Under the pieces are notes generated by a model. That model was not told the origin of the DNA and ran no database searches. It was given only the letters and a program-made list of their open reading frames with translations. 64,000 nucleotides of DNA from Rhodospirillaceae bacterium. Its GTDB lineage: Bacteria; Pseudomonadota; Alphaproteobacteria; Bin65. Shown here in pieces: positions 34,301-39,421 of the stretch (positions are counted from its first letter, which is position 1; each line of letters begins with the position of its first letter). The stretch is taken from NCBI GenBank assembly GCA_011523655.1, contig WTGH01000024.1, positions 1 to 64,000 on the forward strand. The letters run 5' to 3'. A program made the translations under genes and the position numbers.

Positions 34301-35062
34301 GTGACGCTGAAATGGGGCGCCCGCTACGGGCCGGTTTTCGTCAATCGGCTTTACCGGGCCATCGAACGCCATCTGAGCCGGCCGTTCCGTTTCCTGTGCT
34401 TTACCGACGACGAAGCCGGGCTGCTACCGGAGATCGAGACGCATCCCTTGCCCGCGCTCGATCTGCCCGAGCGTTTCGCCCGGACGACCTGGCTCAAGCT
34501 CGGCCTGTTCGCTGACGGTCTCGCCGGAATGGAAGGCGATTGCCTGTTTCTTGATCTTGACCTGCTGATCGTCGACTGCATTGATTGTTTTTTCGACTAC
34601 GCACCCGGAAACCGCTGCATCATTCACAACTGGACGCTGCGGCACCAGATATTCAAAAAGCGGCCTGATGTCGGCAACTCGTCAGTTTTCCGCTGGCGGG
34701 CGGGCACGACCCAGTTCGTCGTCGACGATTTTCTCCGGGAGAAAGACCGGCTCCTACAGCATTACGGCTTCAGATCGCCCCAGCGATACCTGACCGTCGG
34801 CATCGGCGAGCGGCGTTGGTGGCCGGAGGCGTGGGTGCAAAGCTTCAAGCGCCATTCAGTGCCGGCGTTTCCGCTCAACCTGGTTGCCGCCCCAAGGCTG
34901 CCCACAGGCGCCCGGATTCTGGTTTTCCACGGCCGGCCGGACCCCGATCAAGCACTAAATGGCTGGCAACAAGGCAAATTGCATCGGCGCACCCGCCCTG
35001 CACCCTGGATTGCCGACCATTGGCATGACGGGCCGGACGAGACGAGACCGGGCCGCGCATGA
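34301..35062 (+). CDS. Glycosyltransferase-like protein (GT8-like, DLD motif)
   Basis: The product has about 253 residues, beginning (with GTG 34301) VTLKWGARYGPVFVNRLYRAIERHLSRPFRFLCFTDD, with GDCLFLDLDLLIVDCID as the probable metal-binding DxD near residue 85, PDVGNSSVFRWRAG in the middle and ARILVFHGRPDP near the end. The pattern resembles GT-A glycosyltransferases that modify surface polysaccharides. No ATG precedes the domain, so the start could be a few codons upstream. Its stop overlaps the start of the next gene (ATGA), so the two proteins are probably made together. Confidence 0.75.
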   Translation: MTLKWGARYGPVFVNRLYRAIERHLSRPFRFLCFTDDEAGLLPEIETHPLPALDLPERFARTTWLKLGLFADGLAGMEGDCLFLDLDLLIVDCIDCFFDYAPGNRCIIHNWTLRHQIFKKRPDVGNSSVFRWRAGTTQFVVDDFLREKDRLLQHYGFRSPQRYLTVGIGERRWWPEAWVQSFKRHSVPAFPLNLVAAPRLPTGARILVFHGRPDPDQALNGWQQGKLHRRTRPAPWIADHWHDGPDETRPGRA

Positions 35063-36513
35063 TCCGGAAGCTGAAACGCGCCTGCGGCATTCACTTTTCG
35101 ACCAAGGCGCTGGTCCGAAATCCCGGCGTGCATCTACGTCAAATGTCCCGGCGACACCGCAGCTTCCGCGGCCTGCTTGACGAACTCGCCGACGAACGGC
35201 GCATCGTGGTCGTCCAGGTGGGTGCGAACGACGGCGGCGATGCGCTCGGCAATCTAATTCGGGACCGCCCGGAGCGAATCGAGAGGGCTCTGCTGATCGA
35301 GCCGCAGCGGTCTGCATTTGACCGTTTGGCCCGGCGTAACGAAGCCGTGTCCGATGTGGTCTGTCTCAACGCCGCCATCGACCGCCAAGCCGGCGAGCGA
35401 ACGATTTATTCCGTGAACCGGGGCGCCGTCGCTCGCCTCGGCGACGGCATCGCCTCGTTCGACCGGCACCATGTCGAGAGGGCGATTCGGGCGAGGACGA
35501 AGCTCCGCTCCGACGGGGAGATCGAGGCGCTGATCACGGCGACGCCGGTGCCGGTCACAACGCTGGCGCACGCCGCCGCCGGTGCGGGAATTGTGCATCC
35601 CGATGTGTTCATGGTCGATACCGAAGGCTTCGACGCGGAAATCGTCCGCATGGCGTTCGAAGCGGGATGGCTACCCGCCGTCATACAATACGAGCACAAG
35701 CATCTGAGCCGAGGCGACCGCAGAGACCTGTCGACGGTTCTGGAGCGGCGCGGCTACCGCCTGTGGGCCGATCAGGCGGATGTCTGGGGCCTTCGTGCCG
35801 GCGCGCACCGGACTTCACCTTCGGGTGGTGCCGGCCATGGAGCCAGCGCCACCCCGATACCTTCGAATTCCGGAAGGAACACGCCCCTGCGCTTCGAACG
35901 CTGTGTCGCGCCGGACGGTCGGCCGTTCGTTCTCTCCGGGTCCGAGCCGTTCGCGAAGGGCGGCTACCGGCATTGTTACGTTCACCCGGACAACACCGAC
36001 CTTTGCATCAAGGTGGTTGCGCGCCCCCATGATTGCCGCTGCCACGACCAGCAGCGGCAAGAGATCGCAGACCTGGTGTGGCTGCGGAAACGCCGATCAG
36101 ACGCATTTTCCAACCGCATTCCGGCGTTCGAGGGGCTTGTCGATACCGATTTCGGCGTTGGCATCGTCACACGGCTTTGCCGGGACTCCGACGGCCGGAT
36201 ATCCCGTGACCTGGCCGAGATCATCCGGGAGCGCAGTCTATCGCCCCCCTTAATCCGAGCGGTCGATGACCTGGAGCACTGGCTGCGGCAACACCGCTTG
36301 TTAATCGGTGACGCGGGGCCGAAGAATGTCGTCGCCGTGCGATCGGACGGCGACGACTGGACATTGGTCATAATCGAAGGCTGGCGGCACCGTCGATGGC
36401 ATTGGCTGGCCCGGCTCCATCCTCTCTTCGCCGACTGGCTGATCCGGCGGCAGATGCGCAAGTTCCGCCGGCGGGCGACAATAATTGCAAAATGCCGCCA
36501 TCGTGTCTCCTGA
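35059..36513 (+). CDS. FkbM-family methyltransferase fused to a YrbL-like kinase domain
   Basis: The product has 484 residues. The N-terminal FkbM-type SAM methyltransferase (about 45-235) shows VVVQVGANDGGDALG near residue 50 and VFMVDTEGFDAEIVRMAFEAG near 184. A Ser/Gly-rich linker (255-280) is followed by a protein-kinase-like YrbL domain (about 290-440): FAKGGYRHCYVHPDNTDLCIKVV with the presumed ATP-contacting Lys, then LLIGDAGPKNVVAV as catalytic loop and VIIEGW in place of the usual IDG. The Asp-to-Glu change in the metal-binding motif is unusual. It overlaps the glycosyltransferase gene upstream. I infer modification of a sugar or lipid-linked glycan by methyl and perhaps phosphoryl transfer; the acceptor is unknown. 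Confidence 0.78.
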   Translation: MIRKLKRACGIHFSTKALVRNPGVHLRQMSRRHRSFRGLLDELADERRIVVVQVGANDGGDALGNLIRDRPERIERALLIEPQRSAFDRLARRNEAVSDVVCLNAAIDRQAGERTIYSVNRGAVARLGDGIASFDRHHVERAIRARTKLRSDGEIEALITATPVPVTTLAHAAAGAGIVHPDVFMVDTEGFDAEIVRMAFEAGWLPAVIQYEHKHLSRGDRRDLSTVLERRGYRLWADQADVWGLRAGAHRTSPSGGAGHGASATPIPSNSGRNTPLRFERCVAPDGRPFVLSGSEPFAKGGYRHCYVHPDNTDLCIKVVARPHDCRCHDQQRQEIADLVWLRKRRSDAFSNRIPAFEGLVDTDFGVGIVTRLCRDSDGRISRDLAEIIRERSLSPPLIRAVDDLEHWLRQHRLLIGDAGPKNVVAVRSDGDDWTLVIIEGWRHRRWHWLARLHPLFADWLIRRQMRKFRRRATIIAKCRHRVS

Positions 36514-36522
36514 CGCGCCACC

Positions 36523-36551
36523 TTGACATCGCCGGCCGCCGCTTCGATATT
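36523..36551 (+). promoter_or_regulatory. thrS promoter
   Basis: TTGACA at 36523-36528, a 17-bp spacer and GATATT at 36546-36551 form a near-consensus sigma-70-type promoter 10 bp after the stop codon of the preceding gene. The expected transcript start is at about 36558, so the leader peptide ATG at 36559 would be leaderless or almost so. Confidence 0.75.
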
Positions 36552-36558
36552 CCGCGCT

Positions 36559-36618
36559 ATGACGTATCCGACGACCGCGACCATGACCACGACTACGACC
36601 CGCTGCGGAGGGCCGTGA
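36559..36618 (+). CDS. Threonine-rich leader peptide of thrS
   Basis: A 19-codon ORF reads MTYPTTATMTTTTTRCGGP then TGA. Nine of 19 residues are Thr, with five consecutive Thr codons (36586-36600) followed by Arg, Cys and Gly codons. It sits directly behind a strong promoter and 31 bp before a terminator hairpin, in the position of leader peptides in ribosome-mediated attenuation such as thrL of enterobacteria. When charged tRNA-Thr is scarce the ribosome should stall in the Thr run and change the folding of the downstream leader. Confidence 0.85.
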   Translation: MTYPTTATMTTTTTRCGGP

Positions 36619-36679
36619 CGTCCGGTATGGCAAATGTCCGGACCAGCGACCCTCCCGGCCGAAGCCCGGAGGGTTTTTT
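36607..36679 (+). terminator. thrS attenuator (alternative hairpins and terminator)
   Basis: The terminator is CCCTCC (36650-36655) pairing with GGAGGG (36668-36673), extended by GG/CC and followed by six T (36674-36679). An upstream GGAGGG at 36607-36612, inside the last codons of the leader peptide, can pair with the same CCCTCC and would act as antiterminator. A middle hairpin, TCCGG/CCGGA, lies at about 36620-36642. Ribosome stalling in the Thr codons would leave the upstream GGAGGG free and prevent the terminator. Confidence 0.82.
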
Positions 36680-36747
36680 GATGCCTTACGGCGGGGAAAG
36701 CGCCCGATGACAGCAGCCTTTCCCGACCGGAAACGAAGAACGAGACG

Positions 36748-38763
36748 ATGACGGACCAACCTTCACACATCGCGGTGGAACCGGCGGACCGGCCGGTGCC
36801 GCCAAATGGAAATCGGGCCGACGGACATCCGGCGGACCGGCCGGTCGCGATCTCGCTGCCCGACGGCAGCGTCCGGCACTATCCGGCGCCGGTGACGGGC
36901 GCGGATATCGCGGCCTCGATCGGTCCGGGCCTGGCGAAAGCGGCGCTGGCGGTCCGGGTCGACGGCGAACTGCGCGATCTCGCCCGCCCGATCGAGGCGG
37001 ATGCGGCGGTCGAGATCGTCACGCTCAAGGACGACGCGGCGCTGGAGCTGATCCGGCACGACGCCGCCCATGTCCTGGCCGAGGCGGTGCAGGAACTCTA
37101 CCCGGGCACGCAGATCACCTTCGGCCCGGCGACGGAAGACGGCTTCTACTACGATTTCCACCGGGAGGAGCACTTCACGCCGGCGGACTTCGAGGCGATC
37201 GAGGCGCGGATGCGCGAGATCGTCGACCGGAACGAGGACATCGTGCGCGAGGTCTGGGACCGCGACGCCGCCGCGGACCATTTCCGGCAGGCCGGCGAAA
37301 GCTTCAAGGCCGAATGGGTCGGCGAACTGCCGCCCGGCGAAGAGCTGACGATGTACCGCCAGGGCGGCTGGATCGACCTGTGCCGCGGCCCGCACCTGCC
37401 CTCGACGGGCAAGCTGCCCAAGGCGTTCAAGCTGATGAAGGTGGCCGGCGCCTACTGGCGCGGCGATGCCGCAAACCCGCAGCTCCAGCGCATCTACGGC
37501 ACGGCCTGGCGCAGCGAGAAGGAACTGAAGGCCTGGCTGCGCCTGCTGGAGGAGGCCGAACGGCGCGACCATCGCCGCCTCGGCCGGGAGATGGAACTGT
37601 TCCATATCCAGGAAGAGGCCGTCGGCAGCGTGTTCTGGCATCCCCACGGCTGGACGCTCTACCGCCTGTGCGAGGACTATATGCGCGCGCGGCTCGAACG
37701 GGCCGGCTATGTCGAGGTCAGAACGCCCCAGATGATCGACCGGGTGCTGTGGGAGCGCTCCGGCCACTGGGAGAAATTCCGCGAGCACATGTTCACGGCC
37801 GACGACGAGCGCGAGCGCGTCCTCGCCCTCAAGCCGATGAACTGCCCGGCCCATGTCCAGATTTTCCGGCATCTCGGCATCGTCAGCTACCGCGACCTGC
37901 CGCTGCGCATGGCGGAGTTCGGCACCTGCCACCGCAACGAACCCTCGGGCGCGCTGCACGGCCTGATGCGGGTGCGCGCCTTCACCCAGGACGACGCCCA
38001 CATCTTCTGCACGCCGGAGCAGATCAACAGCGAGGCCAAGGCGTTCTGCGACCTGCTCTCGTCGGTCTATCGCGATTTCGGCTTCGAGGACGTGACGATC
38101 AACTTCGCCGACCGGCCGCCGGTGCGCGCCGGCGACGACGCGACCTGGGACCGCGCCGAGGCGGCGCTCATGCAGGCGGTCGAAGCCGCCGGCATTCCCT
38201 ATGAGATGAACCCGGGCGAGGGTGCCTTCTACGGCCCCAAGCTGGAATTCGTGCTGCGCGACGCGATCGGGCGCGACTGGCAGTGCGGCACGCTGCAGGT
38301 CGATTTCGTCCTGCCGGAGCGGCTCGACGCGTCCTATGTCGGCGAGGACGGCGAAAAGCACCGGCCGGTCATGCTGCACCGCGCCATCCTGGGCTCCTTC
38401 GAGCGTTTCATCGGCATCCTGATCGAAGAAAATGCCGGCCGCCTGCCGCTCTGGCTCGCGCCGGTCCAGGTGATGGTCGCCACGGTGGTCGGCGATGCCG
38501 ACGCCCATGCAAAGAAGGTCGCGGAACGGCTGGCGGCGGCGGGCCTGCGGGTCGAGACCGACCTGCGCAACGAGAAGATCGCCTACAAGGTCCGCGAGCA
38601 TTCGACCGCCAAAATCCCCGTGATCGCCGTTGTCGGCCGGTCCGAAGCGGAGGAAAATACGGTTTCCCTGCGCCGGTTGGGCGGAAAAACGCAGGAAGTG
38701 CTTGCCTTGGAAGCCGCGGTCGATACACTGTCGGCTGACGCTGCGTCGCCGATCCAACAATAG
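36748..38763 (+). CDS. thrS: Threonyl-tRNA synthetase
   Basis: This class II synthetase of 671 residues charges tRNA-Thr. It has an N-terminal TGS domain ([27 protein letters not shown]), the editing domain ([35 protein letters not shown]), the catalytic core ([14 protein letters not shown] with a zinc ligand, [47 protein letters not shown]) and an anticodon-binding domain. About 35 residues precede the TGS domain, longer than in most homologues. It is controlled by the attenuator upstream and followed by infC, the conserved order. Confidence 0.97.
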
Positions 38764-38884
38764 CCGAGGTTTTCAGTAACAACAGTGCTCCGGATCGTGC
38801 GGGGCGCTGATATCGGTGTTTGCCCGTTCCCCGGAGGAAGTCCGGAAGAATCGGGCAGGAACGTAGACGAAAGGAAGCCAGCCC

Positions 38885-39421
38885 ATACGACGCCCAATCG
38901 GTCCCATTGCGCCGGTCCACGAAGGCCCGCGCATCAACGACATGATCCGTGTTCCCGAGGTTCGCCTGATCGACGAACAGGGCATTCAGATCGGCATCGT
39001 GCCAACGGAGGATGCGCGCCTGCGCGCTTCGGATGTCGGCCTCGATCTGGTCGAGGTCTCGCCCAACGCCGAGCCGCCGGTCTGCAAGATCATCGACTAC
39101 GGCAAGCTCAAATACGAGAAGCAGAAAAAGAAGAACGAGGCCCGCAAGAAGCAGAAGACCATCGAGGTCAAGGAAATCAAGATGCGGCCCAACATCGACA
39201 CGCACGACTATGACGTGAAGATGCGCGCCATCAACAAGTTCCTCGGCGAAGGCGACAAGGTGAAGGTGACCCTGCGCTTCCGCGGCCGCGAGCTGGCCCA
39301 TCAGGAACTGGGCCTGAAGCTGCTCGAAAAGGTCCGCGACGCGCTGGAGGAACAGGCCAAGGTCGAGCAGTTCCCCAAGCTGGAAGGCCGCCAGATCACC
39401 ATGGTCATGGCGCCGCGCTGA
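38885..39421 (+). CDS. infC: Translation initiation factor IF-3, rare AUA start
   Basis: IF-3 binds the 30S subunit and proofreads initiator selection. The full N-terminus [21 protein letters not shown] is conserved in the family but lies upstream of the first ATG (38942). Between the in-frame stop TAG (38864) and that ATG only ATA (38885), ATC and ATT occur. ATA is placed seven bases after GGAAG, making it the likely start. IF-3 genes commonly use rare start codons so that the factor represses its own translation. The rest is typical: [36 protein letters not shown] and [13 protein letters not shown]. The length is 178 residues. Confidence 0.93.

Follow-up and report, generated by a model that had tools for sequence, protein, structure and literature searches.

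What controls thrS, the threonyl-tRNA synthetase gene, in the 64,000-nucleotide stretch of Rhodospirillaceae DNA analysed here (contig WTGH01000024.1, positions 1 to 64,000; referred to as the window)? Leader-peptide attenuation is a textbook mechanism, exemplified by thrL, trpL and hisL, and the preliminary description of the window placed thrS under its ribosome-mediated, transcriptional form. On the grounds of conservation and folding in silico, this has become the best-supported reading: with a probability of roughly 0.9, thrS is controlled by a Thr-specific ribosome-mediated transcription attenuator with a probably leaderless ORF, which would sense the charging of Thr-tRNA.

Anatomy of the thrS leader

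The elements of the predicted attenuator are located upstream of thrS and downstream of a gene on the same strand, at 35059-36513 (Table 1). The near-consensus promoter originally proposed is there; in shuffles of the leader region, promoter-like sites occur at a mean of 0.1. The 19-codon ORF with nine Thr codons, five of them in a row, is read directly from the sequence. Its run is the only one of at least five Thr codons in the six frames of the 64-kb window, and among the window's 634 short ORFs (distinct stops, 10-60 codons) it alone has 40% Thr or a Thr run of at least 4. The GGAGGG segment that had been named as the antiterminator (36607-36612) is part of the last sense codons of this ORF and is indeed complementary to the terminator arm (p 0.007).

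The CCCTCC/GGAGGG terminator with its six T is present in the sequence as well as in the fold. RNAfold and our own terminator scan both detect it; another terminator scan calls no site at this hairpin because its stem rule rejects the internal C-C mismatch. The whole-leader fold is slightly more stable than its shuffles (z -1.4). Of the middle hairpin that completed the preliminary description, the pairing itself (GTCCGG/CCGGAC) stands, but its status as a separate element does not: it caps the antiterminator stem and is compatible with the terminator too, which leaves it no switching role of its own.

Table 1. Features of the thrS leader in the window, and loci carrying leaders of related type
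Feature	Positions	Strand	Remarks
Sigma-70-type promoter TTGACA-17-GATATT	36523..36551	+	10/12 consensus matches; -35 TTGACA at 36523-36528, -10 GATATT at 36546-36551, spacer 17 nt
Leader peptide ORF MTYPTTATMTTTTTRCGGP, ATG to TGA	36559..36618	+	19 codons, 9 Thr; predicted leaderless; ATG 7 nt past the -10; TGA at 36616-36618
Five consecutive Thr codons (codons 10-14)	36586..36600	+	predicted stall site
Antiterminator 5' strand GGAGGGCCG, codons 17-19 of the leader ORF	36607..36615	+	pairs with 36647-36655
Apical hairpin GTCCGG/CCGGAC of the antiterminator	36620..36643	+	arms 36620-36625 and 36638-36643
Shared strand CGACCCTCC: antiterminator 3' strand and terminator 5' arm	36647..36655	+	mutually exclusive pairings in folding
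Intrinsic terminator hairpin and six T	36649..36679	+	from the fold; between leader ORF and thrS; stem 36649-36674, ACCCTCC-C-GGC-CGAA-GCC-C-GGAGGGT; six T at 36674-36679
thrS, threonyl-tRNA synthetase, full-length	36748..38763	+	Pfam TGS, tRNA_SAD, tRNA-synt_2b, HGTP_anticodon
Short-ThrRS leader loci			L224/L284, L226/L264, L233/L257, L258, L259, L260, L261, L263, L265, L266, L272, L283, L249, L250, L251
asd leader loci			L297, L299, L300, L302, L303, L310, L312, L314, L316

The thrS product is the single full ThrRS match, and the only ThrRS found, in its own genome; it is 92% identical to ThrRS of Spongia_Bin9 and 90% identical to that of bin65, the nearest named loci, by which the window would belong to a sponge-type lineage of Rhodospirillaceae MAGs. 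The infC gene (window 38884-39421) lies 3' of thrS, as in E. coli. The conserved N-terminus of its product extends upstream of the first ATG, and the start codon is therefore probably an ATA, which fits the rare start codons that infC is known to have in other organisms. The gene at 35059-36513 encodes an FkbM methyltransferase domain fused to a YrbL-PhoP_reg domain, an unusual pair.

Conservation within the genus

An alignment of relatives had been set beforehand as the test of the proposal, and in it both the Thr codons and the stems are conserved. The leader is present in all seven same-genus genomes, with an ORF of 18-20 codons in which Thr occurs 9, 8, 9, 8, 9, 7 and 6 times. The -35, the GATATT and the 17-nt spacer are invariant in all seven, and the GGAGGG-type strand and the terminator are kept in every one. 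The terminator core is identical within the genus and its loop is variable; in other families the terminator keeps its position but has another sequence. In the most distant of these genomes (L007) the apical hairpin reads GGTTGG/CCAACC instead of GTCCGG/CCGGAC, that is, with three two-sided changes, in an alignment whose gap was shifted by hand. The GGAGGG/CCCTCC pair itself is nearly unvarying, and the evidence for its covariation consequently rests on more distant loci.

The window and L003 encode ThrRS proteins that are 99% identical, yet differ in sequence upstream of the promoter; L003, L004 and L007 all differ from the window there, with the leader conserved. Linkage to the preceding gene is therefore not enough to account for the conservation of the leader. 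The same comparison weighs on the simplest alternative, that the hairpin is the 3' terminator of gene 35059-36513 and the Thr-rich ORF a chance low-complexity stretch. That gene does lie on the same strand, ending at 36513, and ACG/ACC repeats arise easily in GC-rich DNA, but the promoter sits between gene and hairpin, the leader persists downstream of unlike sequences, and the frame, start spacing and Thr codons of the ORF are conserved, its Thr run being unique in the window; so incidental an origin is scarcely credible.

The leader peptide is variable except for Thr and the C-terminal GG-type codons. This variability speaks against a role in trans of the peptide and/or the terminated leader RNA (~120 nt), in the manner of rnTrpL and peTrpL of Sinorhizobium meliloti, which is suggested by a layout identical to that of the leaderless trpL attenuator; both the RNA and the peptide of trpL function in trans (PMC7298713). 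Such a role is unlikely here, and it would add to attenuation rather than replace it. Repression of thrS by ThrRS protein bound to the leader is known from E. coli (established knowledge; named in PMC2965389), but what is conserved in these leaders is codons, a terminator and an alternative pairing; no tRNA-like domain is seen in the leader, which also has no Rfam match, and a repressor of this kind is hard to credit. Two known RNA families were considered and set aside: a T-box riboswitch, since an Rfam scan of the window matched SRP RNA only, and the Rfam thr_leader type, since no Rfam family matched this leader at its gathering score and none matched in eight related loci even with E values as high as 1.

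A probably leaderless ORF

Transcription normally starts ~7 nt past the -10, so that the RNA would open directly with the start codon of the thrS leader ORF. The spacing from -10 to start codon is 7 nt across the genus (L007 is ambiguous, with GTG at 7 nt and ATG at 10) and 6-8 nt when the Reyranellaceae thrS leaders and the more distant thrS leaders L054 and L136 are included. Its constancy across families speaks against transcription beginning only after the ORF. The thrS leader ORF is thus probably leaderless, and judged by this spacing leaderless leader ORFs would be the rule for this type of attenuator in several alphaproteobacterial families.

The predicted switch: ribosome position and alternative pairing

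The transcript start, the stalling, the read-through and the physiological signal are inferred to fit together as follows. Transcription would start with the A of the leader ATG or an adjacent nucleotide, and ribosomes would load on the leaderless ORF. With Thr-tRNA plentiful, the ribosome should pass the Thr codons and reach the stop, covering GGAGGGCCG; CCCTCC would then be free, the terminator would form and thrS would not be transcribed. When charged Thr-tRNA is scarce, whether through threonine shortage or because ThrRS is inhibited or in too small amount, the ribosome would stall near the start of the Thr run, and GGAGGGCCG could pair with CGACCCTCC in a stem that has the GTCCGG/CCGGAC hairpin at its tip. 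The antiterminator so formed would block the terminator and allow thrS to be transcribed.

Folding of the leader with the ribosome placed at successive codons follows this scheme. The RNA under the ribosome, taken to reach 12-16 nt past the A-site codon's first base, was removed, and pair probabilities were computed for what remained, with the T run as the 3' limit; the calculation is one of equilibrium thermodynamics and does not include co-transcriptional kinetics. In the window, the antiterminator is favoured only when the ribosome is at about codons 8-11, at the start of the Thr run, with probabilities of 0.59, 0.91, 0.97 and 0.70 for codons 8, 9, 10 and 11, respectively. The terminator has a probability of 0.99 without a ribosome and of 1.00 with the ribosome anywhere from codon 14 to the stop. 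The antiterminator peak of the relatives usually coincides with a Thr codon or adjoins one (when 22 leaders were folded automatically, the peak codon was itself Thr in 12), and the antiterminator is weaker in the main Thr run of L004 (~0.2), L006 (0.3) and L007 (~0.5). A regulatory codon run, an intrinsic terminator and a position-dependent antiterminator, the last in silico only, are the marks of an attenuator, and the thrS leader has all three.

The alternative pairing can also be assessed by complementarity between the end of the leader ORF and the 5' arm of the terminator, relative to dinucleotide shuffles (300 for the window). The duplex of 36607-36615 with 36647-36655 has a computed energy of -29.6 kcal/mol, as compared with a shuffled mean of -17.1 (p 0.007). 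The p value is at most 0.05 in 18 of 25 leaders; Fisher's combined value of 5e-15 over 24 leaders is uncorrected for relatedness and only indicative, because related leaders are not independent.

At its third pair, the antiterminator has A-U in the genus apart from the congener L003, which has G-U; most other lineages have C-G (GGCGGG/CCCGCC), and L249 has U-A (GGTGGG/CCCACC). L054 has GGCGGGGT in the ORF and ACCCCGCC in the arm, matching an altered terminator, GACCCCG/CGGGGTC. When the columns of 16 distant leaders were shuffled 500 times, covariation in the terminator exceeded that of all but one shuffle; covariation in the antiterminator was not significant in these same leaders (78/500), because the strand is nearly invariant. 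The antiterminator's partner columns pair in 87% of cells, versus 29-55% when slid.

Leaders of the same type at other genes

In the window's own genome, a covariance model of the genus leaders (R1) scores above 21 bits at no site but that of thrS, and no second copy of the leader is claimed there. Among other genomes, weak matches (E 1e-5 to 1e-2) were retained only when accompanied by a leader ORF and a terminator; several lay inside genes or repeats and were discarded. Most full-length thrS genes of the class have no such leader. Outside the genus, a Thr leader with a terminator precedes full-length thrS at L020 (in the same family), L054 and L136; at L018, a relative of L020 that is cut at a contig end, the end of the ORF and the terminator are kept.

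Through the same search, Thr leaders were also located upstream of a short ThrRS paralog (~400 residues), which has only the catalytic and anticodon-binding domains and belongs to the thrS equivalog TIGR00418. In a sample of 15 such genes from 8 families (Table 1), each is preceded by a leader ORF and then a terminator; 14 of the leader ORFs have 4-9 Thr codons, mostly in runs, and that of L260 has three scattered Thr only. In equilibrium folding, the terminator of the short-ThrRS leaders is favoured at nearly all ribosome positions, and the case for their switch therefore rests on complementarity, which is not individually significant for L258, L284, L250 and L251. With a second model (R2), the same cassette is found at nine loci before asd, the gene for aspartate-semialdehyde dehydrogenase (three of the downstream proteins were confirmed by models and the rest by near-identical N-termini). 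Lys codons are mixed with Thr codons in the runs of the asd leaders, as in MMRFATKTTTTKTTTFGGPARTCA and MNRSRAIKTTTPKTTRCGGPSVGGMR. Codon content thus tracks the target gene, Thr before short and full-length ThrRS and Lys plus Thr before asd, as amino-acid-specific attenuation predicts.

These distributions bring to mind, tentatively and at somewhat less than even odds, a portable leaderless attenuator cassette of the Alphaproteobacteria, its codon run matched to the target (Thr for full-length thrS and for the short ThrRS without editing domain, Lys plus Thr for asd), with the short ThrRS as a reserve that the cassette turns on upon failure or inhibition of the main ThrRS. The presence of the same kind of switch at every short ThrRS paralog examined suggests that this second ThrRS is inducible; speculatively, a Thr-charging switch would make it an inducible reserve, for instance against ThrRS inhibitors.

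Leaders of this type are also found upstream of a GNAT-like gene at L313 and of an ABC transporter at L315. At L230/L307, with a similar leader in L308, the leader ORF MFAQMHARKNAAMTRSGGPCGEFVR and a terminator of the same type are located ~0.3 kb before an AAC(3)-IV-like gene, whose match to the aminoglycoside acetyltransferase covers the N-terminal part only and is below the curated cut-off.

The thrS genes of Reyranellaceae (L127, L046, L047, L153-L180) have a leaderless 17-codon leader that ends in ...RT* and lacks a U-rich terminator. In its consensus fold, ACCACC and CCGAAC at the end of the ORF pair with two segments immediately 5' of the thrS ATG, GTTCGG and GGTGGT, and this suggests a translational version of the switch. 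Other Reyranellaceae genera have fewer Thr codons and retain a CGAACTTGA...CGGCCGG block.

Might thrS of the window likewise be regulated in translation rather than transcription, with a stall on the Thr codons exposing its ribosome-binding site? The Reyranellaceae arrangement, with the ORF end pairing near the thrS ATG, is a precedent, and the thrL-thrS leader of Streptomyces lividans is another that has no clear terminator, but the hairpin of the window lies 70 nt before the thrS ATG and is followed by six T, and its conserved elements are explained without any pairing to the thrS start region. Translational control is accordingly very improbable at this locus.

Comparison with known attenuators

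The E. coli thrLABC operon has a Thr-codon leader peptide, an antiterminator and an intrinsic terminator; it serves threonine biosynthesis, senses Thr and Ile, and its leader ORF is leadered, whereas the target in the window is a synthetase and the regulatory codons are Thr only. A synthetase gene under leader-peptide attenuation is found in E. coli pheM-pheST. Lopatovskaya et al. (2010) reportedly predicted attenuation of aminoacyl-tRNA genes, and theirs is the survey likeliest to hold related predictions; the open literature searched, which did not extend to that survey, yielded no report of Thr attenuation of an alphaproteobacterial thrS, and this does not prove that there is none.

Leader-peptide transcription attenuation also governs the synthetase genes leuS and trpS of Streptomyces (PMC1262725), and trpS of Caulobacter is preceded by a leader CDS (PMC4117421). 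Attenuation of a synthetase is what pheST and Streptomyces leuS and trpS share with the switch predicted in the window; the amino acids and the lineages differ. The attenuator RNA of S. meliloti trpL-trpE(G) starts at the ATG of the leader ORF (PMC7298713, PMC10117765); this is an alphaproteobacterial leaderless attenuator, as is predicted for the window, but with Trp codons and a biosynthetic target.

Of the published cases, thrL-thrS of S. lividans TK24 comes nearest: a Thr-containing ORF, leaderless by RNA-seq, precedes thrS there (PMC8079986). The idea that thrS is without known leader-peptide control gives way to this report. The S. lividans leader differs in belonging to an actinobacterium, in having only two Thr codons (MKRVRPFLETTPGFVPAR), in lacking a clear terminator, and in showing no sequence similarity by eye. 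The preliminary interpretation stands; the mechanism that it predicts is not new, since its kind is known from thrL, pheST, S. meliloti trpL and S. lividans thrL-thrS. What the thrS leader offers is a convincing, conserved candidate attenuator of moderate interest: a strong case for tRNA-charging control of thrS by classical attenuation, whereas E. coli uses a translational mechanism for the same gene.
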